A stretch of DNA of 64,000 bases from Rhodamnia argentea (Eukaryota > Streptophyta > Magnoliopsida > Myrtales > Myrtaceae), in assembly GCF_020921035.1 (NCBI RefSeq), contig NC_063158.1:8104001-8168000 (forward strand), given 5' to 3'. A program made the position numbers and the translations under genes. Each line of letters opens with the position of its first letter. Position 1 is the first letter of the stretch. Below are positions 16,884 to 57,138 of this stretch, one piece after another. The notes under the pieces are model-generated. The model did not search any database and was not told the origin of the DNA. It was given only the letters and a program-made list of their open reading frames with translations.

Positions 16884-17126
16884 GAACATGTGGTCGGGCA
16901 ACCGGAAAGAATCAGCTTGTTTTCTTGGACAGGACGTGAGATGGGTGCTGCTTTCTGGGATTCAAGAAACCGAAACCGGAGGAGGTTAAGGTTGATGGAA
17001 AAACGTAGGCAGTTTTTCGAGAGGGAATGAAAAGAAACAAAGGGTTTTCTTTCGTTGTTGTTGATGATGAAGCGTGACATGTCTTTTAGCTTATGGGATT
17101 CTGTGACTACCCCTAGTTTTGGACAA

Positions 17127-18802: not shown

Positions 18803-19092
18803 GGAAAAATTATCCAACCAATCATAATTTTTTTTGAATAGATGCCGCTTCAGTTTTAAAACTTGTCAATTTTCATCAATTTAGCCTTAAACAACGACAC
18901 AAAATTATAGTTGTTTGGGGTGAATTTTCACCTAAAATAGCCAACGTTGCGGTTTGATATTGTCGGCCGTTCTATGACTGAGCGGACTACATTGGAATGT
19001 TGCACAAGGTGTAAGACTAAGTTGGCTAAATTGATAATTTTTAGGACTAAAGTCGCATCCGTATAATAAGTTTAGGACTGATTGAGTAATTA
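18803..19092. mobile_element. MITE-like TIR element, family A, copy 1
   Basis: About 290 bases. The left end (ggaaaaattatccaaccaat) and the right end (aagtttaggactgattgagt, read reversed) form an imperfect terminal inverted repeat. The interior contains tgaccgagcggactacattg-type wording (here tgactgagcggactacattg), shared with copies near 24.8 and 27.6 kb. No coding capacity. Confidence 0.65.
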
Positions 19093-19520
19093 TCTTCTTC
19101 CTATCGTCCCTCTTTCCTCTTCTACGGCATCCACTAATTCAACTTCCCTCTCTTTATTGAGTTCATCATAAACCCATAAAGAAAAATAAGTTTGAGGCAA
19201 ACGCTCCACATTTGCATTTAGATTTCTCCTCCTACCATTGATTTCCCTCAACAATAGTCCAAAACTATAGACATGGGCTTTGTAAGAAATACTGTGCATG
19301 TCCGTGTAAAATAGATCGGGTGCCACATATACCTAGGATCCTCTTGCAACAATCAACCATATAATTTTGCAAGCCCAAAGTTAGAAACTTTTGGAGTAAA
19401 ATTCTAGTTTGGAAGAAGGTTGTGAGGCTTGATGTTAAATGTAGTTTGCATGTTGCATCCCCAATGCAGATATTCCATTTCCATAGCCACAGCAAGAGGG
19501 ATCGCATAGTTGGGGGACAT
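19090..19520 (-). pseudogene. LRK10L-type receptor-like kinase fragment, copy 1
   Basis: Read on the minus strand, the DNA encodes pieces of a protein kinase domain in changing frames: a catalytic-loop relic FNIKPHNLL, then a stop, then FTPKVSNFGLAKLYG (activation segment), a stop, and then MAPDLFYTDMHSISYKAHVYSFGLLLREI followed by NGRRRNLNANVE. This order and wording match the wheat LRK10-like family (FDIKPHNILLD, KVSDFGLAKLY, APELF, SYKADVYSFGM, GRRKN). The catalytic Asp of the HFD triad is replaced by Asn, and there are at least two in-frame stops and frameshifts. The N-lobe and ectodomain are absent. It cannot make a kinase. Confidence 0.75.
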
Positions 19521-19582
19521 ATGAAGCATGGAAAATCATTAATATAGCATCGCGAAGCATGCATGATGAGACAAGGGATATG

Positions 19583-19849
19583 ATTGGGAGGTGATTTTGA
19601 GGTGGCAATGGGAGGGGGGGCATGGATGTCCAAGAAAATCCATGGACGATGGGTTAAAACTGTCATAAAATGATTAGTGAAACACAAGGCTGTGCGAAAC
19701 TCATTTCTTCTTCTTCTTCTTCTTTTGAACTTTTCTCTGTTTGGGAGATGGGATGGGGTGTGTGTTGATGAGGTGATGGCCATGTTTCTTTCTGTGATTG
19801 AGCACAGGGCATGGATAATCATGGTGGCTATTTGTTTCGGTTTGGGATA
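19583..19849. repeat. segmental duplicate, copy 2 (partner at 17127-17359)
   Basis: Direct duplicate of the DNA upstream of phosphoribulokinase, joined here to the kinase remnant on its left. The homology resumes at 19889-19940 against 18612-18660. The open frame over the (TTC)n run is a by-product of the repeat. Confidence 0.85.
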
Positions 19850-19940
19850 TTCGGTATGGTTTTTATGTTCTTGTCTGAATTTTGACGTTTGGAGGCATTT
19901 GCTGGTTTTCTTAGGTGAAGTTGGCCAGAATTCTGAGAAT

Positions 19941-20414
19941 TGCAATCTCGTGGGTGGTTCTCATCATCACTTCTCCCACTTCGTTACACAAACAATTTTC
20001 CATAGCCATGTGTCATGGCCAATCGATCTAGCACTAACTTGCCCGTGCGATCTTAGGAATTTCTTCCCAAGTCAGCCTTTGTGAGTGTGTCAGCCTTTCC
20101 TTGCTCACGCTCACAACGATCGTAGAGAGAGATACTAGAAAAGCTCTTGAATGTATTCACTTGTGAATGAGATATAGAGGGATCTCATTGATCTAATGGT
20201 GGAGATTATATCTTCCCGATACCTATCTACACGAATGTATTACAAGAATCTGTAATTCCCTTATTGGTGGCCCCTAGGATCATTCTAAAATATTCAATGA
20301 CATCCTAGGAGATTCATCCAATCTCTCTTGTAAGATCACGGTCCACAGAGCATAAAAAACCTCTGGATCTGTGCATATCTCCCAAACCGTGTCACATGCA
20401 CATAACTTCTAGGG
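19941..20414. other. intergenic, no gene seen
   Basis: AT-rich DNA without a recognisable gene or complete repeat. Confidence 0.4.
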
Positions 20415-20942
20415 AACAAGTATCAAAATTTCATAAACTTATTATACCCAAGTTAATCTTAAACTTTTCAGTTGTGCTCATTTAGTCATTAACATTATTA
20501 CATTTTGTCAATTGAGTCCATTTGGCCAATTTAGATCGGAAATCACGAACATGAATGTCAAAAATCCTACGTAAAACAATTGGTGCTCACGTGGGTATTT
20601 TTATTTATAATATTTTAACATTTTTATAATTTTTCTTTGTTTCCTTTCTTTTCTCTTTCCCTTTTCTTTCTACTGGTTTGGCCAAAGGCCACAGGCCAGG
20701 GCAGCTTCGTCGAGTGTCGGTCGGGCAAGGAGGGCCCTCGCCGGCCACTGGCGAAAAGAGAAGAGAGAGAAAAAAGAAAAAAAAAAATAAAAAAATAAAA
20801 AAAGATTTGCACGTCAGCACCAGCATGGTAGGATTGCATACATCCACGTCAACGATTTTCGGCCTAAATTGATTAGATGAACTCAATTGGCAAAATTTGA
20901 AAATTTTAAGACTAAATTGACACAATTAATAGGATTTGGACT
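20415..20942. mobile_element. TIR element related to family A, longer form
   Basis: The left end (ttcataaacttattatacc, then ttgtcaattgagtccatttg about 95 bases in) matches the reverse complement of the right end (ttgccaattgagttcatcta near 20873-20900, then the segment ending at 20942). The matched outer arms run for about 100 bases. The centre is a purine/pyrimidine-rich stretch with a GC-rich core around 20680-20755 (gccaaaggccacaggccagg). No transposase is visible. Confidence 0.6.
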
Positions 20943-20944
20943 TT

Positions 20945-21520
20945 TTTTATACTAAAACCAATTAAACTAATATCTATATAGTGCGATTCCACACAATTCA
21001 ACTTTAAAATACTTTATCATGCTTCACATTTAAATTATTGATACATAGAATATGTTTATCGCATTTTAGGTGAGTGCGCACATTGAAAAATGATGCTCGG
21101 ATGCCGCAAAAAAACTGCGCTAACAACTTCTACAACATCATACCACACGTGATAGCTGCTTAATGTTGTCGTGAATGGTCAAACTACAGCTTGTCTTTAT
21201 GATTTTGACGATGAATCCATAATGAAATACTTAGCAAATATACAGCCGGCCAGATTGGTGGGCAATGATATAATATTGAATGGGTCGTGGATGTTAAGAA
21301 TATCCATTGGCTTTCCGGACAATGAATAATGTATAAAAATTAATGACAGAAATATATTTCAATCATTGTCCACAAAAATTTTTAGGCATAAATGATTGTT
21401 GATAATGAAAATATTTGTTATTAACTATATTTCAAGTGATATAAGCAAACATTTTTAGGAAAATATTTTTCAAATTATTAATTTTTCTCGAAATAAAAGG
21501 AACTTTAATGAGATATAAAT
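20945..21520. repeat. 3' flank of F-box unit 1 (shared with units 2 and 3)
   Basis: Blocks such as gttgtcgtgaatggtcaaac and ggccagattggtgggcaatg recur at about 25185-25300 and 28185-28300, each time downstream of an F-box copy. They mark the duplicated unit as extending at least 1.2 kb beyond the coding region. Confidence 0.75.
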
Positions 21521-21524
21521 AGAA

Positions 21525-21562
21525 AAGAAGAAGAAGAAGAAGAAGAAGAAGAAGAAGAAGAA
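21525..21562. repeat. (AAG)n microsatellite
   Basis: About 12 AAG units immediately downstream of the truncated F-box gene. Confidence 0.95.
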
Positions 21563-21573
21563 AGATCTATTTT

Positions 21574-22395
21574 TCATGAGAAAGAGTGTCCAACTAAAAA
21601 TACATCATGCGAAACCGGCAGTGCCAGGCATCCGTTGGACGACGTGATGAATTTCTCTTCGGAAGGTATCGAATCCGGCAGTGCCATTTCGCTAAAAACC
21701 GCCTCGACCATATCAAATAAGACCAACGGTGTAACGATTTGGCCGTGGACGTGCGCACGAGCGCACCAACAGATGAAATTTTGGAAGACCACTTGATGGC
21801 CTAATCTTTTGTTATGCCAAGAAGGGAAGATATTGCCGATGTTCTTCCAGGAATTGCTCCTCAAGCTATAAATCTGCGCTTGAGAAAAATGACGGTGTGG
21901 GTGCGTTTCAAACTTGTAATCTACGTAGACCACTTTGAAATCATCGAGATGGCCACTAAGAGGATTGAATCCAAAAGCAATCAATCCTGATGCCCGACAG
22001 TGATGTTGAGGAACGACCGTGCACTCATGGATTGATGGGTTCCATATAATTGTATCGGAAAGATTGGGGTTGTCTTTGTGATAAACGGATAAACAAAGGA
22101 CCCCATTGCATGAATCGACGACGTCGTATCCACCGGGATGATCGAACGAAGGATTAAAATGAGATGACTCCAGGTGATGCGAGCAGTAGATCCCAATTCT
22201 GGAGGAATTGTTGTCGTCGTACTTGAGAAGACCGATGGTCCGGAATTTCGACGATCGATCGAGATGGGCTTTGATGGAACAGGGGCCGGTGAGTAGGGAT
22301 TTCCAAGATTTGGACACGCACCGGAACCGAGCTAGCGATTTCACCGGAAGCCGGGATAAGATGTCTATTGTTATGTCGTCCGGGAAGGTTGTCAT
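21574..22395 (-). CDS. F-box protein, C-terminally truncated (unit 1)
   Basis: A single-exon frame of 273 residues. The N-terminus holds the F-box (DILSRLPVKSLARFRCVSKSWKSLL seen in part as LPVKSLARFRCVSKSWKSLL), which binds SKP1 in SCF ubiquitin ligases. The F-box-associated region follows (VVDSCNGVLCLS, WNPSIHECTVVP, SGLIAFGFNP, YSLRSNSWKNIGN). The intact paralogue at 25390-26493 has 367 residues and continues about 110 residues further. Here homology stops just after NGCL, and the last 15 or so residues come from what is 3' flanking DNA in unit 3. A deletion is the simplest cause. The F-box itself is intact, so a shortened adaptor lacking part of its substrate-binding region could be made, or the copy may be dying. 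Confidence 0.75.
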   Translation of the reverse strand: MTTFPDDITIDILSRLPVKSLARFRCVSKSWKSLLTGPCSIKAHLDRSSKFRTIGLLKYDDNNSSRIGIYCSHHLESSHFNPSFDHPGGYDVVDSCNGVLCLSVYHKDNPNLSDTIIWNPSIHECTVVPQHHCRASGLIAFGFNPLSGHLDDFKVVYVDYKFETHPHRHFSQAQIYSLRSNSWKNIGNIFPSWHNKRLGHQVVFQNFICWCARAHVHGQIVTPLVLFDMVEAVFSEMALPDSIPSEEKFITSSNGCLALPVSHDVFLVGHSFS

Positions 22396-22990
22396 CTTCC
22401 TTGCGCTCCTTGAAACGCACTATTGGTTCGGATTGGATATAAATGATGATGAACTACTTTGCATGTAACGATGTTTTCAACCTCATTTGGATGTTCTTTC
22501 AGCTTTTCCTCTTGTCCTGTTATTATGAAGACGATTGCAAGCATTACTGGAGAATAATCCGGGTTATTGATAACCACGATTACATCGCCAGAGTTTCATC
22601 CCCTAAGCATATTACCAAGACGCGAATAATAAGACACGTTGCAAAGTCCACCGCATTGCTCTCGTCTTCTGTGTTATAATGTAAGTTGACGTTGTGATAT
22701 TGTATAACCAGCCATTTCTTGTCCCGTTGGCAAAAATCAATTTAGAATTTGATCTCCTTGATAAAGATAAAGGTTTTGCCACACACACACAAAAAAAAAA
22801 AAATGGTCGAATGTGTAAAATCGTCTCCTTTACGAGTAAGACCGTTGATTTAGAATGCTCCGTTGTCACGGTATGAGCCATTGGCTCTAGCTCAAGAACC
22901 GCGTCATGTGCTATATACCAACTCTACCAACGCAAAGAAGTGCACGCTTAGTGTAATTAATTAGATAGTAAAGCGCCGTCCTTAGAGATT
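22396..22990. repeat. 5' flank of F-box unit 1, duplicated at about 26520-27070
   Basis: Several hundred bases upstream of both F-box starts match closely (for example atgatgatgaactactttgc and gtccaccgcattgctctcgt). The upstream region was thus duplicated together with the gene and may carry the promoter. Confidence 0.8.
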
Positions 22991-23037
22991 TCTCTCCAGA
23001 CAGTTCCAAACCTCTCTTTCCACAGTCGATAGTAGTT

Positions 23038-23146
23038 TTTTTTTTTTTTTATAACCAAGATGTCCCGCGGCCGGCGAGCTTGCGCTCAAATCAACGGTGG
23101 AGCACGACTAGTCCTCGGGGGCAACTGCAAGACCCCACCACCACAG
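23038..23146 (-). mobile_element. short tRNA-derived SINE with 17-bp target duplication
   Basis: A 109-base insertion begins on the plus strand with a T-run (a poly-A tail on the minus strand) followed by ataaccaagatgtcccgcgg. It is flanked by near-identical 17-base repeats, cacagtcgatagtagtt at 23021-23037 and cacggtcgatagtagtt at 23147-23163. Tail, size and duplication fit a SINE. The body wording (gcaagctcgccggccgcggg on the minus strand) resembles tRNA-derived plant SINEs. One mismatch in the duplication implies some age. Confidence 0.7.
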
Positions 23147-23163
23147 CACGGTCGATAGTAGTT

Positions 23164-24797
23164 CTCACCCGAACAATAGAAGAATCATGCATGCGGTCGA
23201 GATTTCTCTTACAAGCGAAAGATTATAGCCTCAAGTTACTATTATTATTTTTTGCGGTCGAAATTATTGCCCGAGTCAACACCTTGATTTTTGCCGGCAA
23301 ATGGAACATGCAATTTTTTTAAATAAATAAAAAGAAGTAGTATTAGAAGTAAAAATAATAAAATTAACAACAACAAGAATACTTATAATAAGAATAACGC
23401 AAAAAGTTGTTACATGTTATTGGTTCCAGAGCCATCCAGGTTCCATCTAACTAGAACTTACTTGTCGGAGCAGGTTCTTTAATTTTTTGAAATCTGCAAT
23501 CTATCTTACATACCATGAAACCTGGAATTGGACAGGTTTCCTATATATTCGGTTTTAGGTTTTACTCCGAAATCATGCTCACTCTTACAAACCGGCCCTA
23601 TCTCACCAGTCTCTTCTCTCTCTCTCCATCTCTATCATTAGTGGTAACACTTCCCAACCTCTCTTTCTTCGATTCGATCACCAACTGAGGCTAAGAATTG
23701 GCTCTGATTTCTAAAGACATTGGAAGTTACAGTTTTTTTAGGTCGGAAATGTGATGATGTGGGAAAAATCACTCTTCAAGCCAAGTTTCTTTTTTTTTTT
23801 TTTTGGGTCAGACAACTCAAGTTGATTGGTGAATTTCACTGGTGTTAACTTGCGAGTCTTTTGAAGTTCTTGTAAAGATCTTTTTATCTGTTGAAGGTTT
23901 AGAGAAGAATTCATTTACACTATCTAACAAGGTGGTGCTAAATTTAGTAAATTAAGCTAACAAAAAAAAGGGTCTATTTGTAACTTGTGCAATCAATGTT
24001 GCCCGCAACCGCATATGCGACTTACTCTTTGGAGCTCCAAATATATTACTGCATTTTTCTTTTCTTTTCTTTTCTTTTTAACTGTTTTTACCTTTTTTTC
24101 TACTCGACTTTTGCGCTTATGGAAAACCCATTAATCGAACTTCCTATTGCACAAAGATTGAAAGTTGTTTATGGAAATATTTTATGGAACTCCCTGTTGA
24201 TTACACCGATATAGTTTATTCGTTTTAGTTTCATTGTTGAAGGTTTACAGGAGAACTCATCGAGACTATCCAACACGTGGTACTGAAGTTTTATTGTCAC
24301 CTGCGATCGGGGGTGAGCAACGAGAACCGATCGAACCAGACCAAACCGGCCGGTTTTGGGCGGTTTTCGAGAGGACATGTCAGATAGCACCAAGGGCACA
24401 TCTCCAAGTAATCATCTCCCTTTGGCAATTTCCCAGAAAGCGTTCCACTGAAATTCCACCAAAAACACTTGGCGCAAATTCGCCCAATCTAACATCAACT
24501 AGTATATTGCTGATTGAGAATATATCTAGAATCTAATCATTCATCAAGATCACGTGTTTATTTATTTTTTTTAGCATTGTGGTTTGGTTGATTTTGCCGT
24601 AGTGCTGGCGCCCATCTATCACAAGAAACATATAACATCACAAAACAATTAAAGCAGTATGAGCCTTAAACGAGGGAAAATATTAACGCCCCACATATTT
24701 TAACTTTAAAGGACTTTTATCATGCTTTGCGTTTTGATTCCGGTTATATATAATGCGTTTATAGCATTTCAGGTGGGTGTGCACATTGAAAAGCAAG
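23164..24797. other. intergenic, degraded repeats
   Basis: No gene recognised. AT-rich with short poly-T and poly-A runs. The block at 24680-24795 is the dispersed flank repeat also seen at 18660-18800 and 20945-21070. Confidence 0.45.
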
Positions 24798-25090
24798 GGA
24801 AAATTATCCAATCAATCTTAAATCTTATGCACAGATGCTACTTCAGTTTTAAAACTTGTCAGTTTTCGCCAATTTCTCCTTAAACCATTTCACAAAATTC
24901 TAGTCCTTTTGGTCAATTTTCAACGGAAATAGCTGACGTGATGGCTTGGTATCGCCGGTCATTCTATGACCGAACGGACTACATTGGAATATCGTACAAA
25001 GGTGTAAGATTAAGTTCCCAAGATTGATAACCTTTAGGACTAAAGTAGAAAACCGTATGATAAGTTTAGGACTAATTGAGTAATTTTCCT
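24798..25090. mobile_element. MITE-like TIR element, family A, copy 2
   Basis: About 290 bases with imperfect inverted ends (ggaaaattatccaatcaatc, and aagtttaggactaattgagt read reversed). The body is the same as copy 1, including gaccgaacggactacattgg. It lies in the 3' flank of F-box unit 2. Confidence 0.7.
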
Positions 25091-25389
25091 AGACAGTGAT
25101 TTTGGCATGCACCATGCAAAAGAAATCGGCGGCAAAGAAATTGCACGGGCAACTTATATAACAACATATCACTCGTGACTTCTGCCTAACGTTGTTGTGA
25201 ATGGTCAAGCTACGGCTTGTTTATATGATCTTGACTATGAATACGAAATGATATGCTTGGTAAATATACTGCGGGCCAGACTGGTGGGCAATGATGCATC
25301 ACTTAATCCGGCGCGGATGCTAAAATACTTTGTCGGACATGGAGCATGTCCCTACTGAAACCACATTTATGAACTCCCAAACTCCAACC

Positions 25390-26493
25390 CTAATCTCTAG
25401 TTACAACAGAAACCAAACTCTCTGTATAATTGACCAATCGGCTGCTACAATACGCCTCCACTCCAACTTTAAATTCTTCGAATTCCCTTCTCCTTGTGTC
25501 GTATGAAACCACGTAGCTAGTTAGACTCAATCGCAACTCACAATAGAAGCTCTTGACGAAGAGAACTTCTCCGGAGCTCGCGGCTCCGAGCGGCCAACAC
25601 TGCAAAAATCCATCCATCAACACGGTGGTCGTGTACAGCTTGGCCCAAGACTCGGTGACCCCGAACTCTTTCATGGTCCACACTTCGTAACACTGCGACG
25701 AGGGGTTCTGTACGATTAGAGATAGGCATCCCTCGAACAAAGTGATGAATTTCTCCTCGGAGGGCATCGAATCCGGTAGAGCCATTTCGCGGAAAACCTC
25801 CTCGACCATATCGAATGAGACCAACGACGCAACGATTTGGCCGTTGACGCGAGCATGAGTGCCCCAACAAATGAAATTTTGGAAGATCACTTGATGGCCT
25901 AAGTTTCTGCCCAGCCAAGAAGAGAAGACATTGCCGATTTTCTTCCAGGAATTGCTCCTCAAGCTATAAATCTGCGCTCGAGAAGAATGGCAGTCTGTGC
26001 GCGCTCCAAAGTTGAAATTTATGTTGACCACTTTGAAATCATCAAGATGGCCACTAAGAGGATTGAATCCAAAAGCAATCAATCCCGATACACGACAGTG
26101 ATGTTGAGGAACGACCATGCATTCATGGATTGACGGGTTCCATAAAAATATATCTGGAAGACCGGGTTTGTCTTTGTAGTAAACGGATAAACAAAGGATC
26201 CCATTACATGAATCGACGACATTATATCTACTGGGATGACCGGACGAAGGATTAAGATGAGATAGCTCACGGTGATGCGGACGGTAGACCCCGATCCTGG
26301 AGGAATTGTTGTCGTCATACTTGAGAAGACTGACAGTACGGTATTTCGACGATCGATCGAAATGGGCGTTGATGAAACAGGCGCCGGTGAGCAGGGATTT
26401 CCAAGATTTGCACACGCACCGGAACCTAGCCACTGATTTCACCGGCAGCTGGGATAAGATGTCTGTGGTTATGTCGTTCGGGAAGCTTGCCAT
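25390..26493 (-). CDS. F-box protein with F-box-associated domain (unit 2, apparently intact)
   Basis: A single-exon frame of 367 residues starting MASFPNDITTDILSQLP. The F-box occupies roughly residues 1-45 (LPVKSVARFRCVCKSWKSLL). The associated domain follows (VVDSCNGILCLSVYYKDK, WNPSIHECMVVPQHH, SGLIAFGFNPLSGHLDDFKV, YSLRSNSWKKIGNVF, VWTMKEFGVTESWAKLY), as in the large plant F-box/FBA family of SCF substrate receptors. The frame is open upstream of this ATG but has no earlier ATG, and the chosen start matches unit 1. Substrate is unknown. No intron is needed. It is probably functional because the frame is intact while both neighbours are damaged. Confidence 0.85.
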   Translation of the reverse strand: MASFPNDITTDILSQLPVKSVARFRCVCKSWKSLLTGACFINAHFDRSSKYRTVSLLKYDDNNSSRIGVYRPHHRELSHLNPSSGHPSRYNVVDSCNGILCLSVYYKDKPGLPDIFLWNPSIHECMVVPQHHCRVSGLIAFGFNPLSGHLDDFKVVNINFNFGARTDCHSSRAQIYSLRSNSWKKIGNVFSSWLGRNLGHQVIFQNFICWGTHARVNGQIVASLVSFDMVEEVFREMALPDSMPSEEKFITLFEGCLSLIVQNPSSQCYEVWTMKEFGVTESWAKLYTTTVLMDGFLQCWPLGAASSGEVLFVKSFYCELRLSLTSYVVSYDTRRREFEEFKVGVEAYCSSRLVNYTESLVSVVTRD

Positions 26494-27071
26494 CTTCCTC
26501 GTGCTCTCAAAACATACCTTGAAACGCACTATTGGTTCGGATTAGATATAAATGATGATGAACTACTTTGCATGTAACGATGTTTTGAGCCTCATTTGGA
26601 GGTTATTTCAGCTTTTCTTCTTGTCCTGTTATTATGAAGACGAATAGAACATTGCAAACATTACTCAAGAACAATTCCGTTTATTGATATCCACGATTAC
26701 ATCGGCGAAGTTCCTCCCCACTAACAAAGCAAGTTATCAAGATGCGAACAATAAGACACTTTGCAAAGTCCACCGCATTGCTCTCGTCTTCTGTGCTATA
26801 TTGTAAGTTCATAGTGTGATATTGTATAATCAGCCATTTCCCGTTTTGTTGCAAAAACCAATTTAGAATTCAATCTCAGCTTGATAAAAATTAAGGTTTT
26901 GCGAAAAGAAATGGTTGAATGTGTAAAATCATCTCTCTTATGAGTAAGACCGTTGATTGAGAGTGCTCGGTCGTCACGGTGTGAGCCAATGACACCAGCT
27001 CAAGGACCGCGTCATGTATTATACCAACTCTACTAATGCAAAGAAGTGCACGCTCAGTATGTTAATTAGAG

Positions 27072-27556
27072 CGAAAATTTCAAATAGGGGCCTCGAATGT
27101 CATCATTTTCTCAAATAAAGATATGAAATGAATCTTATTTCAAATAAGTGTGTGAAGTGCCATCATTTTCTCAAATAAGGGTCTGAGGTAAATTTTGTTT
27201 CAAATGAGAGCATGAAGAGGTTATATCGGTCTCAAAAAAGGACCCGACATCACCGGTTGGTTAAGGGCATTTTCGTCCTTTAATTTTTCTTTAATTTTTT
27301 TTTTATGTTTTTAAACTCAAAAACGAAAACACAAAAAAGGAAAAAGAAAAAACCCTTAGCCAGTATTTTTTTAATTAAAACAACTAGTTTTCTAATATAA
27401 TTTAACTAAAATTTAGGTTAAAATCACTTTTGAACAAAAATGCCTTGACAAATTGGAATAATTAGCCGGTTGGCGAGGTGAAAACCTTATTTGAAACAGT
27501 CCCGGTCACTTCGGACTCTTATTTAAAACAAACTCTACTAAAGGCCCTTTTTAAGT
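27072..27556. mobile_element. TIR-like element, family C, copy 1
   Basis: The ends carry related inverted wording: tttcaaataggggcctcgaa on the left and, reversed, forms of tttcaaataaggttttcacc on the right. Inside are repeated caaataagggtctgaggtaa-type phrases and a gacattttcgtc-like motif (here gcattttcgtcctttaattt). Related DNA occurs at 37283-37713 and 61384-61500. No coding capacity. Confidence 0.5.
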
Positions 27557-27560
27557 AAAT

Positions 27561-28082
27561 GGGAAAAATTATCAAAAAAGTCTTAAACCCAATGCACTTT
27601 TGCCAATTTAGACTTAACCTTTGAATTTTGTCACTTTAGTCATAAACCTTTTACATTTGTGCCAATTCGGTTCTAAATCTTCTTTTTATTTCAATTCAGT
27701 CCTAAACCTCCTGCATTTGTGCTAATTTAATCCATTCGATCAACTTTGCCCCGGTGACACTGATGTGGATAATTTTTAATAATAATTTAATATTATTTAA
27801 TTATATTTATTTTTTTCTTTCTCTTTCCTTTCAATTTTTCCAATTCAGTTTTAAATTATATCAATTTTGCCAATTTAACCTAAACTTTTGCAGACAATTC
27901 AATGTAGTTCTTATGGTCAATATAGCCGACATGGCGGTTCAATTATCGCTGGCCGTTCTATGATTGAGCGCACTATATTGAAATTCCGCGCAAAGGCGTA
28001 TGAATAAATTGGCAAAATTAATAACTTTTAGAACTAAAATAGTGTTTGTGCAATAAGTTTATGACTGATTAATTAATTTACC
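27561..28082. mobile_element. TIR-like element, family A, copy 3 (expanded)
   Basis: The left part contains serial repeats of a phrase meaning roughly 'gtcataaaccttttacatttgtgcc', with variants at 27630-27730. The right end matches copies 1 and 2 (tgattgagcgcactatattg, then ataagtttatgactgattaa). The extra length lies in the serially repeated left arm. Confidence 0.5.
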
Positions 28083-28387
28083 TGAACAATGACATTGGCA
28101 GGCACCGTGCTAAAAAATCGACGGCAAAGAAAATGCAAAAAAAAAAAAAACTTATGTAACATCAAAACGCTCGTGATTGCTGTCTAATGTTGTCGTGAAT
28201 GGTTAAACTACGGCTTGTTTATATGATTTTGACTATGAATACGAAATGGAATAGTAAGCAAATGTGCTGCGGGCCAGATTGGTAGGCAATGATGTATTAT
28301 TCAATTGGTGATGGACGCCCAAAATATCCGTACCACAATTTCAAGACTTAAACAAAAAGAAAAAGAAAAAGAAATAGCTATATTTCG
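28083..28387. repeat. 3' flank of F-box unit 3
   Basis: Matches the flanks of units 1 and 2 (gaatggttaaactacggctt, ggccagattggtaggcaatg). It is separated from the F-box pseudogene by a 1-kb TIR element. Confidence 0.7.
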
Positions 28388-29410
28388 GGCAAAAGTACTT
28401 GCAGAGTGTCAATATTTATGCACAACGCTCACTTTAGTGCCAATATTTTTGTTATCGCTTAAGTGTCAAATCGAAAAAAAAAAAAGATCACTCAAGTGCC
28501 AATTTCGGCTAAAAACAATCACTTATGTGCAAATTCCAACGAAAGAGTGCACGTGACATTTTTTTTATTAATTTCTTAATATTATATGTATTTTTTAAAT
28601 AAAAAAATTCTATCCACGTGGACGTCACTTGGAACTTTTAAATTAAAAATTAAGTTATTTTTTAAAAAAATTAAAATTAAACAGAAAAATAACTTAAAAA
28701 ATAAATAAATAAATAAAACACACACACGCACACACAAACACAAACTTGCAATTGTAGCGGGAAGGCCGTGAACCCTTCTGCCACTGACCCACCAATGCTA
28801 GCCGGCAATGGGTGGAGGAGTGCTCGAGGGGGTCGCCGAGCCCATCGAGGCCTCTCTAGCAAGGGTCGATGAGGCCGGGTCGTGGCCGGTCAAGGCCTCA
28901 TAGACCCCATGGTGAGGCCGGAATTGCCCAACCAACACTCGGTGTGGTCATGGTTGGGCGATTCCGGCCTCGCCCAGCCACCGTGAGGCCACGGCCAGGC
29001 CTCACCAACCCCCGGCGAGGCCACAACGGAGGTCGTCGGGGCTCAACGACCCCCCGGGCACTCGCCCACCCATCGCCGGCGGGCGATGGGGACGGTGGCG
29101 AGGGCTCACAGCCTCTCGCCGCTACAACTTAATTTTTTTTTTAGCTTATTTTTAGTTTTTGAGTTTATTTGTACTTTTTTTAATATTACGTGGATTTTTT
29201 TTTATTGATTTTTAATTTTTTTTTTGCTGACCGGGATGCTTCGGCGGGCCACGTAGATGCCTTGTCAGATTTCCGGCAAAGCTCACTGGAGTTAGCACTG
29301 AAATAACCGTTTTTAAAAAAAATTAGCACTTAAGAAATTCAAAAAAAAAATATTGGCATTAAAGTGAGAGCCGTATACAAATTTTGACACTTCTAGTGTC
29401 CTTTTACCCT
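28388..29410. mobile_element. 1-kb TIR element, family B, with GC-rich core
   Basis: Long inverted ends: the left arm contains cactttagtgccaatatttt and the right arm, read reversed, contains cactttaatgccaatatttt. Matching extends over about 60-80 bases per arm. The middle (about 28745-29125) is strikingly GC-rich, with many gaggcc/ggcctc words, between A/T-rich shoulders. Open frames across the core have no family resemblance. It is probably a non-autonomous DNA element inserted into the unit 3 flank. Confidence 0.7.
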
Positions 29411-29544
29411 ATTTTTCATGAGTAAAAGTGTCCAACTGAAAAAACAACAGAAAAATACATGATACATCTTATACATAAAATACTTTGTCGGAGGTAAGGC
29501 CGGTTTCTTGTGAAACTTCATTTATGAACTTCCAAACTCCGACC

Positions 29545-30603
29545 CTAATCTCTAGTTACAACAGTAACCAAACTCTCTACGTAACTGACCAAACGGTTAC
29601 TACAATACGCATCCACTCGGCACTCCAACTTTAAGTTCTTCGAATTCCCTTCTCCTTGTGTCATGTGAAACCCCGTAACTAGTTAGACTGAAACACAAAC
29701 AGGAATAGAAACTCTTGACGAAGAGAACTTCTCCGGAGCTCGCGGCTCCAAGCGGCCAACACTACAAAAATCCGTCCATCAACACTGGTCCTGTACAACT
29801 TGGCCCAGGACTCGGCGATGCCGAACTCTTTCATGGTCCACACTTTGTAACACTGCGACGATGAGTTCTGTACGATGAGAGATAGGCATCCATCGAACGA
29901 AGTGAGGAATTTCTCCTCGGAAGGCATCGAATCTGGCAGAGCCATTTCGCAGAAAACCTCCTCAACCGTATTGAATAAGATCAATGACGTAACGACTTGG
30001 CCATTGACGTGAGCACGAGTGTCCCAACAGATGAAATTTTGGTAGACCATTTGATGGTCTAAGTTTTTGTAGTGCCAAGAAGGGAAGACGTTGCCGATTT
30101 TCTTCCAGGAATTGCCCCTCAAGTTGTAAATCTGCGCTTGAGAAGAATGGCAATCTGGGTGCACTCCAAATTTGAAATTATGTTGACCACTTTGAAATCA
30201 TCAAGATGGCCACTAGGAGGATTGAAGACAAAAGCAATCAATCCTGATACACGATGGGGACGTTGATGAACGACCATGCACTCATGGATTGATGGATTCC
30301 ATAGAAATATATCTGTTACAGCGGGGTTGTTTTTGTAATGAATGGATAAACAAACGACTCCATTGCATGAACCGACGATGTCATATCTAACGGGACGATC
30401 GAACAAAGGATTCTATGAGATAGCTCACCGTGGTGCGCACGGTAGACCCCAATCCTGGAGGAATTGTTGTTATACTTGAGAAGATTGACAGTACAACATT
30501 TCGACGATCGATCAAGATGGGCTTTGATGTAATAGGCGACGGTGAGTAGGAATTTCCAAGATTTGCACACGCACCAGAACCGAGCTAGTGATTTCACCGG
30601 AAC
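29545..30603 (-). pseudogene. F-box gene pseudogene (unit 3), 5' end replaced by kinase relic
   Basis: Homologous to unit 2 from PVKSLARFWCVCKSWKFLL through WNPSIHECMVVHQ, GNSWKKIGNVFPSW and VWTMKEFGIAESWAKLY to a stop at the same place as unit 2 (VTRD, then TAG). The frame changes near 30410, near 30165 and near 29785, so no full protein can be made. The first 15 or so residues of the F-box, including its start codon, are missing. The homology begins abruptly at about 30603, where a kinase fragment is joined in frame. Confidence 0.85.
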
Positions 30604-30990
30604 CATACCCTCTACATTTGCATTTAGATTTCTCCTCTTACCGGCCATTTCCACGAACCAACATTTCAAAACTATAAACATAGGCTTTGTAAGAAACATC
30701 ACCCATGTCCATATAAAATGGTTCAGGTGCCATATATACCTAGGATCCTCTTGCAACAATCAACCATATTATGCCATGATCATTCAGATACAATTTTGCA
30801 AGCCCAAAGTCAGAAACTTTTGGACTGATTCTAGTTTAGAAGAACTTTGTGAGGCTTGATGTCAAAGTCTAGTTTGCATGTTGCATTCCCAATGTAGATA
30901 TTCCATTTCCCTAGCCACAGCAATAGGGATGACATAGTTGGGGCACATATGAAGCATTGGAATCATTAATATACCATCGCAAAGTATGCA
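30604..30990 (-). pseudogene. LRK10L-type receptor-like kinase fragment, copy 2
   Basis: Same kinase region as the copy at 19.1-19.5 kb, again with frame changes and stops: DFDIKPH (catalytic loop, here with the Asp kept), KVSDFGLAKLYLNDHG, YMAPEPFYMDMGDVSYKAYVY, then KRRNLNANVE. It is joined directly to the F-box pseudogene. The two kinase fragments end at almost the same codon (NLNANVE), but copy 1 continues with a kinase-like C-terminus while copy 2 switches to F-box sequence. Confidence 0.75.
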
Positions 30991-31203
30991 TGATGAGCCA
31001 AGGGACACTACCAACTACATCATAAAAAAAAAACCGGCATGGCAAATTCGAATCTCCCCACAATGGGGAGGCTACATCACCAACGTACTCATGACTGTGT
31101 GAAATAGATATGATAATTACAGAAGAAAATCTCATCATAACAAAGCAGCTCGAACACCCATGGCAAGACAGCCAACCCAAGCCAGTGATGAAAAAGCAGG
31201 ATA

Positions 31204-37282: not shown

Positions 37283-37713
37283 TTAAATAAGGGCATGAAG
37301 TGTCATAATTTTGTGTTATCGTCTTCTCAAATAAGTATTCGAAGTGGATTTTATTTCACAAAAGGGCTTGAAATATCCTTTTTTTTTATTTCAAAGAAAG
37401 GCCTAACAAATGACATTTTCTTAAAATTTTTTGATTTATTTTAACTTTTTTCTTCTTTTTTTTCCTTCTTCCTTTTGTTTTTTTTCCCCTACCTTCCTAG
37501 CCACCGGTGTGGGCTAGCCTTGTTAGATTTGGTCGACAAGAGTGAGGGGAGCCCTTGGCTTGCTTAGGTGAAGCCCTTGTCGGCCTCGAGGGTGGCCTTG
37601 CCTAGATGAGGTGTGCGAGAAGCTAGGGAGAAAAAAAAAAGCAAAGGGAAGAAAAAAAATAAAGAAATTTACGAAAATGTCATTGGTTAGGTGATTCTTT
37701 AAAACAAAGAGGG

Positions 37714-37800
37714 TGTTGGAATATATAGATATTAAACCACGCCTTCTTCTATCCGCTTAAGCTTTTAGAGCGGTTGGTCGTGGTTTCATCAAATCTTTCG
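37714..37800 (+). repeat. left LTR of the TRIM-like element
   Basis: 87 bases from tgttggaa to atctttcg. The terminal CA expected for an LTR reads CG here, consistent with a single substitution, because the right LTR keeps TTTCA. Confidence 0.8.
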
Positions 37801-37812
37801 TGGTATCGGAGC
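37801..37812 (+). other. primer-binding site (initiator tRNA-Met type)
   Basis: tggtatcggagc directly follows the left LTR and differs by one base from tggtatcagagc, the usual plant site complementary to the 3' end of initiator methionine tRNA. Confidence 0.8.
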
Positions 37813-38631
37813 GGAAGGTCTTGAGTTCAAATCTTTACAGGCCTCTATTTGCCTCCCCAATAAATATTTCCACGCGACCCCTAAACCCACGAAGAAAGTT
37901 CCGCATCCGAGAGAACAAGTAAGCGCTCGCGATTCATCCGAACAATCATCGGCCCTAGTAGTTGAGAAAACCTGAAGCTCTGTTAGGTTTCCCTATTTTT
38001 TGCCCACTGCCCTATTATGTTCAAGTGCCCTATTTCGTGGGCCCGTGTCGCAAGCCATAGTCTATTTTGGATCGAGCCGTATCTTGGGTAGTGGGCACGA
38101 GTGTCCGGGCCCACATGCTACTTTTCCTAGGCCGTGTGTCAAGCCCGTGGGTCAAGTGGCCGGGAAGTTGTGCCGATTTTCTAGGTCATGTCCCAAGTTG
38201 TGCTAGGCCGTATCTTAGATCGTGTTCTAAGTTGTGCCCGAGCCGAAGATTTTCAAGGATCATCGTTACACTCGCCTCGTGTAATTGACTTTGAGCCGAC
38301 CTATAATCCTTTGTTAGGAAGCTAATTGCGTTCAAATTAGTTTAAATAGATGATTAGGGTGTTTAGGTAGAAATGAACAATTCAACCATAATGATAAAGT
38401 GATCTAAAAGACTGACAAAAATGAACACTATGGTAATAAACATATGAATGGCGATTAATGACTTTACTATGGTGGAAAAATGGCAATTAATGAAGTGTTC
38501 ATTTCCAACTTCAACTCGTGTAATTTACTGTCATTAAGTGCTAATTGGTAATAAACATTATCGCTCTTAACAAATTTTAGGAATGGGCTGATGGATTGCG
38601 TACCCGCAATCAAAATATTTCTAACCATAAT

Positions 38632-38990
38632 GTTGAATACATCGGTGTAGCGCGCGTGCAACCCATAACATCTAATGGCATCACGGACCCGTTATTGTCT
38701 CAAACTTCCTTGGCTTAAGCGGCCATAGTCTCTTTAAGAAGCTGGCTGTGGAGATGTACATCAACATAGCTAGTTAGCAAACCGAGGTCTCGTTCGTTAT
38801 CAAAATTAACTAGACAAATCGCTCCCCCAACTAAGAACGGCCATGCACCACCGCCCATAGAATCAAGAAAGAGCTCTTAGTCCGTCAATCCTTACTATGT
38901 CCGGACTTGGTAAGTTTCCCCGTGTTAAGTCAAATTAAGCCGCAGGCTCCACTCCCGGTGGTGCCATTCCGTCAATTTCTTTAAGTTTCA
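38632..38990 (-). pseudogene. degenerate 18S rRNA fragment inside the TRIM-like element
   Basis: On the minus strand this reads as the 3' half of plant nuclear 18S rRNA: tgaaacttaaagaaattgac, gtggagcctgcggcttaatt, ctctttcttgattctatggg, catggccgttcttagttggg and gttgcacgcgcgctacacc-like wording, in the correct order. I estimate roughly 85-90% identity from memory of the conserved gene, with most changes being transitions. It is about 360 bases of an 1.8-kb gene, and both ends break off inside conserved sequence. It is not a working rRNA gene. Confidence 0.9.
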
Positions 38991-39083
38991 AAGATTCATC
39001 TTTGTTACCTTATATCGAAAGATATATTCCAATAAGCGTTCTCAAAGTTATGGCATGGCGTTTTTCTATATAGTGAGGGGGAG

Positions 39084-39199
39084 TGTTGGAATATATAGAT
39101 ATTAAACCACGTCTTCTTCTATCCGCTTAATTAAACCACGCCTTCTTCTATCCGCTTAAGTTTTTAGAGCGGTTGAGTGTGGTCTCATCAAATCTTTCA
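39084..39199 (+). repeat. right LTR of the TRIM-like element, with internal 29-bp duplication
   Basis: 116 bases. It matches the left LTR except that the segment ttaaaccacgycttcttcta...ccgcttaa is present twice in tandem, adding 29 bases. Confidence 0.8.
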
Positions 39200-39235
39200 G
39201 AGGGCACTTCATGCTCTTCTTTAAAATAAGATCCA

Positions 39236-47847: not shown

Positions 47848-48248
47848 CAAAATTTCTTTGCCGGTGGAGTCGCATATCTATTGGGAGAAAGCGGGTACTT
47901 TGATTTCAAGTTTCCATAACAAGTGGGCAGAAACAAAAAGGAAGAGTCAAAATTTCTTTGCCGGTGGAGTCGCATATCTATTGGGAGAAAGCGGGTACTT
48001 TGATTTCAAGTTTCCATAACAAGTGGGCAGAAACAAAAAGGAAGAGTCAAAATTTCTTTGCCGGTGGAGTCGCATATCTATTGGGAGAAAGCGGGTACTT
48101 TGATTTCAAGTTTCCATAACAAGTGGGCAGAAACAAAAAGGAAGAGTCAAAATTTCTTTGCCGGTGGAGTCGCATATCTATTGGGAGAAAGCGGGTACTT
48201 TGATTTCAAGTTTCCATAACAAGTGGGCAGAAACAAAAAGGAAGAGTC
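47848..48248. repeat. perfect tandem array, 4 copies of a 100-bp unit
   Basis: The unit starts aaaatttctttgccggtgga and ends aaaaaggaagagtc. Copies begin at 47848, 47948, 48048 and 48148. I see no base difference between copies in the whole array. The array ends 100 bases before a TATA box. The open frames through it are produced by the repeat and are not supported as genes. Confidence 0.97.
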
Positions 48249-48476: not shown

Positions 48477-50077
48477 GTAAGAATTCCAGGTCTTGATTCC
48501 TTTAATCGCAGATTATTTCCTAGTAAAGTAATAGTTTCCAGCGGTACTGTTAAGTTCTGAGTTAGTGGGTTGGCTCTACAGCTTGTCTACTTAATCGCAT
48601 ATTGTAAAGAACTTTGGGGTGTCGTGGACATGTAGAATCTTACACAGGTTGACTGTTTGATCGGGATGAAACTTTAAAGTTCGTTATGCACTGCTGGAAC
48701 CAGATTCGAACTGTTGTGTGTCGATGCCGGTTTTTGAGTTTTAACAAGCACTTTGCTGAAACAACTACAGGGGCTCCCAAGTTCGGCTTGTTCATTTGTG
48801 ATTCTTCCTTAGGTGATCAATTCGCTCTGTCTGAAAATTACTCCAAATTGCTTGACATAACGAGAAAATAGTGCTTTATAATCATAGATTCAGTATGTAG
48901 TTGAGTAAGCGGTCCATACGATGCAATGAACTTCAGCGTCAGAAACCAACATCAACATGAGAAGTTGAGATATATGCGTTTGCATGAGGAGAGGCATATG
49001 ATCATAAGCTAGTACATACTTTTTGTTTTGGCCCTTTTGAGAACAGAGTGAGCATGAGCATGTCCAAGAATGCAAACGTATCCACCTAATGGATGGCGAC
49101 ATTTCAATGAACAATCCAATTCATCTGCAAGAAGCAAGCATTGTTCATAATCATCCGACAATACGGCTCATTCATCATCATCTTATTCATGATCGCGCTT
49201 TCAAACTGAGATGAACTAGTCGGGGTTTAGTGGTCTCATTACTGCGAATTCCCAAATTTAAGACGTGCTTGACCATGCATTATTTAGACCGAAAAAGGGT
49301 ATTCCCTAGATTGAGATACGGGTCATTTATAATGTAAGTTCTGGTCGAACATACACTTACTGTGTGAAAAGTTAAAAAAGACGACTATGTCAATGAACTG
49401 AAGAGTCTGCTATTGCGTTTATACAAAAAAGATGAGCACCTTGAAGATTAGCATGACTTAAGTAGAGGTGTATAAAAACGATATGTACATCAATATGCTT
49501 TGAGGTGATTCTCTTTTCTGGCTTTAAAGAATTCTGGGGTCACAGAAATAGTTGGCTCGTTATCTTGCAAGAACAATCATTTCTTGAACACCATAAATGA
49601 ATTTGACCTCTGCTCTATCCACGTTTCGGGAACAATGAGCCACTGAACCTCACAAGTCTAGAGCTAAAACCAGTACTTAAATTTTAGACAGTTCTGAGAG
49701 GCCTCAGCTTTTCCAGACCATTTGCACAGTTTTAGATTTTTGAGTGGGACCTGAAATGCTCGAATAAATGTAGTGAATCCACAATGCAAAGCATCAAGAA
49801 GCGGAAATCTTAAAATCTCCGAGAGCCAAGCGAAGTTGGAGATAAGAGACTAGTAGCTCTAAAAGCAATACATGCCCTGAGAAAGTGTAGTCAACTAGTG
49901 CTGCAGGAGTAAACTTTATCTAAATGGTTTTGGAGCCCAACATGTTGAAGCATGGAGTCTACCCTATATACGAGCACATTTAGTAATGCACATCAATTTG
50001 AATCATAAAACCGCTGACACAGTTTGCAGTATTGTGACAGCCACTGACCTCTGATCTTGCAAAGTTCCAAGCAGAGA
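48477..50077 (+). other. putative 5' UTR intron of NLR 1
   Basis: AT-rich DNA without a credible gene, bounded by GTAAGA at the left and AG at 50073-50074. If transcription starts elsewhere, this is simply the upstream region of the gene. Confidence 0.35.
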
Positions 50078-52927
50078 ATGGCAGAAAGTGCAGTGCTGTA
50101 TCTACTTAGCAAGCTGGAAAGCTTTGTTGGGAATGGGATTCAGCAAGAAAGAGATGGTCACGAAGAATGGATGTCTCTGATGAGAGAATTTGAGCGCATC
50201 AAGGCCTTCCTAAAAACTGCAGATTCCATGGAAGAGTGCAATGAAGAAGTCAAAGTATGGGTTAAGCAAGTACGAGAAATTGCGTATGAAGCTGAAGATG
50301 TTCTTGATGAATATAAGCAACTCTCAGGGCAGGATCATCAAACTGAGGGCTTTCTACGAATGATTCAAACTAGTGTCAGAAACAGGAAAGCTCGACACCG
50401 ACTGATTTCAGCTATGAAAAGCATCAGCCCCAGAATCAAAAGTATCTGTGAAGGACAGCAGAGACTGTTTGACGGTTTCAGCACAACTGAGAGAGGTTCA
50501 AGCTCAACCTCTTCTTACGAAGACAACAAATGGCAAGACCATCGAGGTGATGCACTTCTGGTAGAAAAATCTGATCTGGTGGGCATCGAAGAGCCCAAAA
50601 AGGAGCTTGTCGAATGGTTGGTCCAGGGTGTTTCGCAATGCGAGGTAATTTCAGTGGTTGGCATGGGAGGTTTGGGGAAGACAACCCTGACAAAGCAAGT
50701 TTATGATGACCCAGCAGTGAAGAAACGATTCACAGTACGAGCTTGGGTCACTCTTTCTCCCTCATTAAGGACGGAAGATCTGCTGTTAGACATGCTTCAA
50801 CAGATCACCAGTAGCATCATGAAGACGGTTCCAGCGGAAGCAAAAACTCGCGATAGCAGTTGCATTAGAACGATGATCAAAGACCTCCTCCAGAAAAGGA
50901 AATCGAAATACCTAATCGTCCTAGACGATGTGTGGGACATGAACAAATGGGATGCAGTCAAATGTGCGTTACCCAACAATAACAATGGCGGTCGGATAAT
51001 GGTCACAACAAGGAAATCAGATCTAGCATCAGCATCCGGCACTGGATGTGCAGGGAAGGTCTACAACATGAAGCCCTTGTCAGCTGAACAGTCACATGAA
51101 CTTTTCTGTAGGAAGACGTTCAAAGAGAAAGCGTGCCCCAGCCATTTGGAGGAAATTTGTCGACACATCTTGAGAAAATGTGAAGGACTTCCCCTAGCCA
51201 TTGTGGCCATCGGTGGTGTTCTGGCCTCAAAGGACACAAGAAGAATTGATGAATGGGAACTTGTCCGTCGCAGTCTCCGTTCCGAAATCGAAGACAACGA
51301 AAAGCTAAAAAATCTGAAGCAGGTTCTTTCATTGAGTTTCAATGATTTGCCTTATTACTTGAAGTCCTGTTTTTTGCATTTGAGCGTATTCCCTGAGGCT
51401 CACAATGTCGAGTGTATGAGGATAATCCGACTCTGGGTAGCAGAGGGCTTTGTTGAAAGGAAAGAAGGTAAGACCCTGGAAGAAGTTGCTGCGGACTACC
51501 TTGATGAGCTCTTGAACAGAAGCCTCATCCAAGTGGCAGAGACAACCAGTGATGGAAGGGTCAAAATGTGCCGAGTTCATGGCCTTTTGCTGGAAATAAT
51601 CATTTCAAAGGCAAGGGATCAGAATTATGCAATCATAGACCAGGAACACAGCGAACTGTGGCCAGAAAGAGTTCGTCGCCTCTCTGTACACAAAGCGTTT
51701 CAGGTTGCGCAGCAAAACCGATCACTTTCCCATCTCAGATCGTTGTTAATGTTTGGCGTGGACAGGTCTTCTGTTGATGACGCTCTCTCATCTGAATTCA
51801 ACCTTCTCAGAGTCCTAGATTTATGTCATGCTCCAGTAGGCCGCTTCCCAGTTCAGGTACTTGACATGAATTGTCTTAGGTTTCTAAGCTTGAGATCTAG
51901 TCATATTCAAACCATTCCAAGTTCCATAGGGAACCTTCAGAACCTAGAGACGCTAGACCTCAAAGACACTCATGTCATGGCATTACCTGTGGAGATAGCA
52001 AAGCTTCAGCGACTACGTCATCTCCTTGTGTATCGGTATGAGACAATAGCTTATTCGCACTATAAATATGGTTTCAAAACCCCTGCAGATATCGGAGCTC
52101 TGCAGTCTCTGCAAAAGCTATGCTATATAGAGGTAGATGACGAAAGAAACCGTCGCAATATTTTGGGGCTGGGGAAACTTGATCAGTTAAGGAGGTTGTG
52201 TGTGTTAAAGTTGAGGAGAGAAGACGGAAGGAATCTGTGCTCATCGATAGCAAAGTTAACCAACCTCTCCTCACTGGCTGTCTATGCATTCGATGATGAA
52301 GAAGAACTCGATCTGCATCACCTTTCTTCACCTCCGCCACTACTTCAGAGGATCTTCTTGAGGGGACACTTACAGACCTTACCAAGCTGGATTGCGAACC
52401 TCCACAGCCTCGTAAAACTACGCCTGAGAATGTCCTGTTTAAGGGATGATCCACTGGAATCCCTTCAAAATTTGCCCAGTCTGGTTCATCTCGAGTTGCT
52501 GCATGTTTATAATTGGCAAACTTTGCGCTTTGAGGCCAAAGGGTTCATGAAACTTAAGACATTGGGGCTCGATCTTTTCGATGAGCTCGAGTTCATACAG
52601 GTGGAGGAGGGAGCAATGCCCTGTCTAGGAAAGTTGATCATCCAGCGGTGCAAATTGCTCAAGGATCTGCCATTAGGAATCGAGCACTTAAAGATGCTCA
52701 AGGTGTTGGAGTTCTTCGACCTGCCTGATGAATTAGTCCAGAAACTTAAGCCGGACGAACAAAATGAGGACTATCAGAAGGTTGCGCACGTTCCTGAAAT
52801 TCGTTACGCTTACTGGAGAGAGCAAGGTTGGGATGTCACGTCTGTAGAGACATCGGTCGAGGAAGAGGGCTCTCGTTTGCAGAGTTCTAGTATGAGGAGT
52901 AGTGAACTACCTCCTTGTTGGAAATAA
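50078..52927 (+). CDS. CC-NB-ARC-LRR disease resistance protein, RPM1-like (NLR 1)
   Basis: A single coding exon of 949 residues from the MAESAVLYLL start. The open frame extends slightly upstream but without an ATG. Domains: an Rx-type coiled coil (1-120) with VREIAYEAEDVLDEY in the EDVID position; NB-ARC with P-loop GMGGLGKTT from residue 195, RNBS-A FTVRAWVTLS, kinase-2 LIVLDDVWD near 279-287, RNBS-B GRIMVTTR and GLPLA near 369; and winged-helix wording VFPEAHNVECMRIIRLWVAEGF. The MHD motif reads VHG (His501-Gly502) instead of MHD. From about residue 560 come irregular LRRs (LRVLDLCHAPVGRFP, LETLDLKDTHVMALP, LQTLPSWIANLHSLVKLRL). The C-terminus ends PPCWK. Such proteins are cytosolic or membrane-associated immune receptors. 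The recognised effector is unknown. Confidence 0.93.
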   Translation: MAESAVLYLLSKLESFVGNGIQQERDGHEEWMSLMREFERIKAFLKTADSMEECNEEVKVWVKQVREIAYEAEDVLDEYKQLSGQDHQTEGFLRMIQTSVRNRKARHRLISAMKSISPRIKSICEGQQRLFDGFSTTERGSSSTSSYEDNKWQDHRGDALLVEKSDLVGIEEPKKELVEWLVQGVSQCEVISVVGMGGLGKTTLTKQVYDDPAVKKRFTVRAWVTLSPSLRTEDLLLDMLQQITSSIMKTVPAEAKTRDSSCIRTMIKDLLQKRKSKYLIVLDDVWDMNKWDAVKCALPNNNNGGRIMVTTRKSDLASASGTGCAGKVYNMKPLSAEQSHELFCRKTFKEKACPSHLEEICRHILRKCEGLPLAIVAIGGVLASKDTRRIDEWELVRRSLRSEIEDNEKLKNLKQVLSLSFNDLPYYLKSCFLHLSVFPEAHNVECMRIIRLWVAEGFVERKEGKTLEEVAADYLDELLNRSLIQVAETTSDGRVKMCRVHGLLLEIIISKARDQNYAIIDQEHSELWPERVRRLSVHKAFQVAQQNRSLSHLRSLLMFGVDRSSVDDALSSEFNLLRVLDLCHAPVGRFPVQVLDMNCLRFLSLRSSHIQTIPSSIGNLQNLETLDLKDTHVMALPVEIAKLQRLRHLLVYRYETIAYSHYKYGFKTPADIGALQSLQKLCYIEVDDERNRRNILGLGKLDQLRRLCVLKLRREDGRNLCSSIAKLTNLSSLAVYAFDDEEELDLHHLSSPPPLLQRIFLRGHLQTLPSWIANLHSLVKLRLRMSCLRDDPLESLQNLPSLVHLELLHVYNWQTLRFEAKGFMKLKTLGLDLFDELEFIQVEEGAMPCLGKLIIQRCKLLKDLPLGIEHLKMLKVLEFFDLPDELVQKLKPDEQNEDYQKVAHVPEIRYAYWREQGWDVTSVETSVEEEGSRLQSSSMRSSELPPCWK

Positions 52928-55831: not shown

Positions 55832-57138
55832 GTGAGTGTTGATGATAGTCTCTTCTTTATAGTTTTGATGATTATCGTGTCTAACCTGATTTCTCATCTA
55901 CAGGTCACTGCTTACGTTAGTTTGCATATTGACCCCCAAGTGCTAATTTAACTTCTTTCACAATCTTCTGTGCGTCAGCCCACTCTACGTCACAGTGAAT
56001 TGCCTCACCAAACAATGCAATTCATTGCCTAATGTTTCCCTCGCTCAAGAACTTGGATTACAATACTCTAACCAGAGGTTAACCCTAGCTTAAGTCTAAT
56101 CAAGATTATAATTAAAAAAAAAAAGTAGTTGAATAGCCATACAGACCACCGAATTGCTCCTTTGTCCTTGAACAAGAAGACAAAGTGTGGAGAGGTTACT
56201 TGGATACCTCTTGTAAGAACCCAAGTACCTGAAGGAGGTAACTAGAAGACGTCACCCTACCGTTAGCTTCTTTTGCAATATGTCCGGTCGGACATGGATT
56301 CATGACTGCATTCGATAAGTTTTCTTCAGTCTAGAAATCCCTTTGTCATAGGTTATGAATTTGGGAATTTAAACAGATTCTGACATGGAAGGGCCACGAC
56401 TAACTTGCATGACACAGATTATGTCCTGTGAAATTTTCCAGAACAAAGACATGTACGAACTGAGAGCTAAAGCTAATTATGCAATGGATTCACCAAATAG
56501 CATTGCTTCGAGGAAAGCAAAATGTAAATGAAGGCACAAACCGCGGGGACAATGATGGACGAAATCATCTCGGTGAGTCCCTCGATCAAAGTTACTCCTA
56601 GGTGAACATCAAATTTCACATCACACTAATGACATCAACTTTTCCCTATAAGAATAAATTCAACTCTTCCCATTTTTCTCAGGGTAACAAGCAGAAACAC
56701 AATGGTCAGTCGTTAACACAAACCTCAAGTTTAGGCATTTGAATGGCTTTGCTTTCAGGATGCATACACTCTATCCAGGACTACTGTACCTGTAAGCAAG
56801 CTAAAGAAATTCAGTACAAAGCAGCATATACTTAGTACTGAATAATTTGAGTAAGAGAAGGCAAAGATTTAAAATACGAGAAACGGCACTAGAAGCTGCA
56901 AAAGCAATACATAAGTTTGCATGTCAACATGATGTGAAAGACATAGCAAATGAGCACCAGTTCAATTGGTCTGGATGTAGAGCCCCACCTGACTTTTTAC
57001 GATATAAACTGAACTATAAATTTAAACGTCAGAGTCATTCCCATCAAGCTAAACCTAAAGGAGAAAAATTGGAATCAATATTCTTAGGCACTATGAAACC
57101 CAGCAACTCCTGAAATTTCAGAAAGCCAAGTGTAGAGA

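Follow-up and report, generated by a model that had tools for sequence, protein, structure and literature searches.

The element at positions 37714-39199 of the window, a 64-kb stretch of DNA (C9:8104001-8168000) within the 346.66-Mb host assembly of 74 contigs, was found to be a TRIM-like LTR element carrying an internal antisense piece of 18S rRNA, and very probably represents an ordinary TRIM of which this one copy was patched. It belongs to a multi-copy host family, and the middle of its interior has been replaced by host sequence of mixed origin, with the tested junctions occurring nowhere else in the readable part of the assembly. The family exists independently of rDNA, with no sign that the rDNA piece was multiplied.

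The short LTRs, the purine tract and the target-site duplication (TSD) reported in the preliminary description of this DNA were all confirmed. On the plus strand, the 5' LTR of 87 bp occupies 37714-37800 and the 3' LTR of 116 bp occupies 39084-39199, the latter consisting of 87 bp plus a 29-bp internal tandem duplication according to the LTR alignment. The element is bracketed by exact 5-bp GAGGG duplications at 37709-37713 and 39200-39204, and the polypurine tract GTGAGGGGGAG at 39073-39083 adjoins the 3' LTR. The left part of the interior (37801-37875) starts directly 3' of the 5' LTR with the primer-site-like motif TGGTATCGGAGC at 37801-37812, which corresponds to the primer site described before and is a putative priming site for the initiator-Met tRNA. 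Both TGGTATCGGAGC and GTGAGGGGGAG were identical or nearly so in other family copies. The two LTRs differed at 6 of 87 aligned sites in the pairwise alignment. The 3' LTR ends in CA and the 5' LTR in CG, at a position that is A in all ten left LTRs aligned from other copies. The total length is 1,486 bp, and no ORF of at least 120 aa overlaps the element. Within the 64-kb window, neither a second copy of the element nor any tRNA gene (ARAGORN) was detected.

Searching the host genome with the whole element gave 1000 candidates, and the 40 scored among them comprised the element itself, 31 rDNA places and eight places matching the end with the LTR and primer site. The rDNA places, located on C6 and C17, matched the 18S part only, with 87-92% identity. 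Each of the other eight had a second LTR match nearby and, when read, proved to be seven members about 290 bp long and an eighth that is truncated in its 3' LTR. When the query was restricted to the LTR and primer site, 40 of 589 candidates were scored, and these were the element and 39 other places. The next LTR began 201-206 bp after the first in 35 of these 39, and the remaining four, when read, likewise proved short inside, their right ends being truncated or altered; a long interior was thus seen in none of the 39 other family places among the 40 scored of 589 candidates. Fourteen other copies were fetched, and ten of them were measured for TSD, length and LTR differences. Nine had both LTRs (86-87 bp, n=9), an exact 5-bp TSD, a length of 288-292 bp and 0-7 differences between the LTRs; the tenth (L010) was truncated at its 3' side and had no matching TSD. 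The normal member is non-coding and about 291 bp long, with LTRs of 87 bp.

Short LTRs, a primer site with a polypurine tract, a 5-bp TSD and a multi-copy family all identify these sequences as TRIMs, and the nine normal members (288-292 bp) lie under the 1-kb length of this class, which the patched copy (1,486 bp) exceeds. In length (288-292 bp), LTR size (86-87 bp) and 5-bp TSDs the family is comparable to the short TRIMs known as SMART (292 bp; PMC10886601), a likeness in size and structure. Because of the 5-bp TSD and the published links between TRIMs and Copia, the family is presumably mobilised in trans by an element of the Copia type. Two host places (C7:6850196-6850666 and C5:30543087-30543442) showed three consecutive LTR matches and resemble published tandemly arrayed TRIMs or LTR-internal duplications, and another copy (L067) was directly followed at its right end by an inverted copy of the LTR.

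Comparison with the family copies showed that homology ends at 37875 and restarts at 39073. At this point the normal copy L011 has a 10-bp inverted repeat, CACGCTTAGT/ACTAAGCGTG. The patched copy retains CACGC and GTG, and the 30 bp in between, which sat within the central inverted repeat between CACGC|TTAGT and ACTAAGC|GTG, are gone; 1,197 bp (37876-39072) are present instead. As family homology stops and resumes in this manner with 30 bp lost, the event exchanged TRIM sequence for the insert, unlike a clean nested insertion. The fold of the whole normal interior was not exceptional (z -1.54, with 15 of 200 shuffles equally good), so that a hairpin there is supported by its perfect arms and not by energy.

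The 1,197-bp replacement brings together pieces of differing origins, namely spacer rDNA, a dispersed repeat and 18S. The preliminary description had reported about 360 bp of reverse-oriented 18S sequence, and this was borne out as a minus-strand fragment of 358 bp at 38632-38989 by Rfam and alignment. It had overlooked that the fragment accounts for only about 30% of the replacement, and that another antisense piece derived from rDNA, 73 bp long (37876-37948, minus strand), begins where the TRIM sequence ends. This second piece matched six places on C6, C17 and C7 with 90-93% identity, the C7 match being a dispersed copy, and at the one locus where an 18S was found nearby the match lay on the antisense strand, some 130 bp upstream of the 5' end of that 18S. 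We read it as external-spacer rDNA on the basis of that single locus and of where its matches lie on C6 and C17, at the beginning of each. The segment 38055-38371 (plus strand) belongs to a mostly non-coding dispersed repeat family, for which 39 other places of 71-87% identity were found among 40 scored of 380 candidates. Most of these matches span only the best-shared part at about 38243-38371. In all seven repeat copies read, the repeat family sequence runs on beyond the point matching 38371, and this continuation is not in the insert. The three remaining stretches, 37949-38054, 38372-38631 and 38990-39072, had no second match in the host assembly, and the queries 38372-38631 and 38985-39090 returned themselves as the sole candidate. 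The stretch 37949-38054 may be the diverged start of the adjoining dispersed repeat.

Read along the minus strand, the 18S comes first and is followed by the spacer that precedes an 18S, and both rDNA pieces have the same orientation. As this is the order of a tandem array lacking most of a unit, the two pieces possibly derive from one shrunken rDNA stretch. The donor could have been such a stretch, itself struck by a repeat and taken at once.

The 18S piece corresponds to eukaryotic SSU rRNA (RF01960, minus strand, 275.2 bits, E 2.7e-79), which was the sole Rfam match at gathering score in the 64-kb window. It was aligned with seven host array copies, the top matches of the whole-element search, all of which contain N stretches and at least one of which is interrupted; in this alignment the piece extends to 38990. 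It differed from the seven copies by 26-29 changes in 357-359 sites. Relative to an approximate plant 18S sequence as outgroup, 16 changes were common to the piece and the array, 11 of them present in all seven copies, four in six and one in three. These shared changes place the piece in the host rDNA lineage. The seven aligned copies also have in common an unusual variable-region sequence. Some array loci are decayed, with a long interruption of the 18S in L008 and shortened 18S sequences in L053 and L054; the L053 copy is 1,023 bp long, compared with 1,831 for the model.

With six gap columns left out, private change in the 18S piece amounted to 23 of 358 columns (6.4%), 16 of the 23 being C>T or G>A, and the change per lineage in the LTRs was 6 of 174 (3.4%; six changes in 2 x 87 sites). 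The difference between 23/358 and 6/174 was non-significant (p 0.116), and reached p 0.041 when five array-specific columns were included (28/358). The rate comparison thus leans only weakly towards capture before the last insertion, and a donor rDNA copy already in decay would yield the same result. An initial claim that capture must precede insertion, derived from p values of 0.003 (39/358, against the approximate plant 18S) and 0.014 (20/205, in conserved Rfam columns), was dropped because the seven host copies cut private change to 23/358, with p 0.116.

The occurrence of the composite was investigated with patterns spanning its junctions, allowing three mismatches or fewer each, in the readable (non-N) part of the host assembly. 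The left 18S, right 18S and TRIM/spacer junctions gave one match each, the patched copy itself (one forward, none reverse), with 0 matches for the controls. A copy departing from every one of these patterns by more than three mismatches would escape this search. The normal interior junction into the central inverted repeat, also allowing up to three mismatches, was detected at 277 places of the 347-Mb assembly (152 forward and 125 reverse), and the reversed control pattern gave 0 matches. The recovery of these 277 junctions demonstrates that the method finds hundreds of copies where they are present. N bases made up 95,980 of the 246,482 bases in the fetched rDNA-bearing loci and could hide a copy or the source of the insert.

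These findings are best explained by an ordinary host TRIM member of about 291 bp, inserted with the GAGGG TSD, that would have suffered a break at its central inverted repeat. The most likely route would then be repair of the break by copying several ectopic templates into the gap as filler DNA, either in the inserted copy itself or in a mother copy, so that 30 bp were exchanged for a 1,197-bp host patchwork including the two antisense rDNA pieces. The TSD was taken in the preliminary description to mean that the element had moved as a unit, which does not follow from the TSD alone; it shows that a TRIM inserted and not that it held rDNA at the time, since a normal 291-bp TRIM patched later would show the identical TSD. 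More generally, LTRs and a perfect TSD date a TRIM and not its contents. The 18S piece has no demonstrated role.

The main rival has the same structure with other timing and another route, namely capture that preceded or accompanied insertion. The patchwork would have been acquired in a mother copy, or through successive template switches while the cDNA was made, and the composite integrated as a unit. It is a serious possibility, albeit one that we hold to be less than even. The exact GAGGG TSD and the higher private change in the 18S piece than in the LTRs are consistent with it, and the lost segment within the inverted repeat would be a plausible switch point. There is also published precedent in TRIMs that contain fragments of host genes and have 5-bp TSDs, most of which were present in at least two copies, pointing to a real process (PMC4717578). 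Against it, the three hybrid junctions revealed no second copy in the readable host assembly, the rate difference was non-significant, and the donor may already have been decayed rDNA. The orientation is also unfavorable. A jump onto rRNA during minus-strand synthesis would leave the rRNA in the sense orientation, and simple template switching is therefore disfavoured, as both rDNA pieces are antisense.

A specific form of early capture can be proposed tentatively, in which a shrunken rDNA-unit stretch, running antisense from the 18S to the next-unit spacer, was taken up before or during copying and retrotransposed once. If so, a plant LTR element would have moved nuclear rDNA away from the arrays, and transcripts started in the LTR, if there are any, would be antisense to 18S rRNA. 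Had the rDNA travelled inside the element, this would illustrate one way in which rDNA pieces escape the arrays, and would extend the published TRIM captures to a non-coding RNA gene.

A later clean insertion into the TRIM of another mobile element bearing the 18S appears improbable. A direct repeat of 10 bp, AACCATAATG, with copies at 38384 and 38623, adjoins the 18S edge and speaks for such an event, but 30 bp of the TRIM are lost, the insert is of mixed origin and no second match was found for the stretches flanking the 18S. Least probable is the proposal of the preliminary description that a multi-copy family captured the 18S once and then amplified it, as the structure exists, but in one copy only, with hybrid junctions unique in the readable assembly against 277 normal ones, no long interior in the 39 other scored copies, and no further copy found there that combines both LTRs with these 18S breakpoints, the outcome that the description had itself named as counting against it. 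Claims of capture and spread need genome-wide junction counts first.

Comparable TRIMs are on record with other host sequences, and the unusual point is rDNA as the donor. Gao et al. (2016, PMC4717578) report 30 TRIM elements of 1,172-1,449 bp that contain host gene fragments, have both LTRs and are flanked by 5-bp TSDs; with two exceptions they were present in at least two copies. These TRIMs, GmaRetroS15 of soybean among them, resemble the patched copy in being small (about 1.2-1.5 kb), with both LTRs, a 5-bp TSD and an interior able to contain more than one host fragment, but their donors are transcribed exons and they are mostly multi-copy, whereas the patched copy holds rDNA and a dispersed repeat and occurs once. 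The same authors found 5S rRNA sequence in Cassandra alone among the TRIM families. Helenus and Ajax contain small-RNA-gene sequence within their LTRs (PMC10886601). Like the patched copy, Cassandra, Helenus and Ajax are TRIMs holding RNA-gene sequence; according to PMC10886601, this sequence is 5S rRNA or tRNA-like, lies in the LTRs, is conserved across copies and is proposed to serve as a Pol III promoter. In the patched copy, by contrast, the 18S is internal, antisense, decayed and found in one copy.

A Cassandra-type TRIM was rejected, as the sole gathering-score Rfam match in the window is the internal 18S, with none in the LTRs; a retrozyme was likewise rejected, as no hammerhead matched at gathering score in the window. 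No LTR element or TRIM with an internal 18S was found in the open-access literature searched, judging by the titles and abstract openings of the entries listed. The LTR core and one plant 18S variant had no match in public viral contigs. Another plant 18S pattern matched one viral contig and none of the genome contigs. A public viral contig ends in eukaryotic 18S joined to other sequence (L001 4059-4305), probably through chimeric assembly; 117 bp of its 18S aligned gap-free, and the Rfam match covered 247 bp.

The genes of the window are plant-like, comprising F-box genes and resistance genes of the NB-ARC-LRR class whose N termini are of the Rx type. The NB-ARC-LRR cluster lies at 50048-52927, 57136-59982 and 62999-63832, with two stop-to-stop frames of 959 and 948 aa and a third, NB-ARC frame of 277 aa. 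The region 17100-31000 includes an F-box match in two frames and several duplicated segments that are 73-86% identical. At 47848-48248, a 100-bp unit is repeated in four perfect copies (100% matches, no indels), the result either of tandem expansion in very recent time or of an error in assembly.
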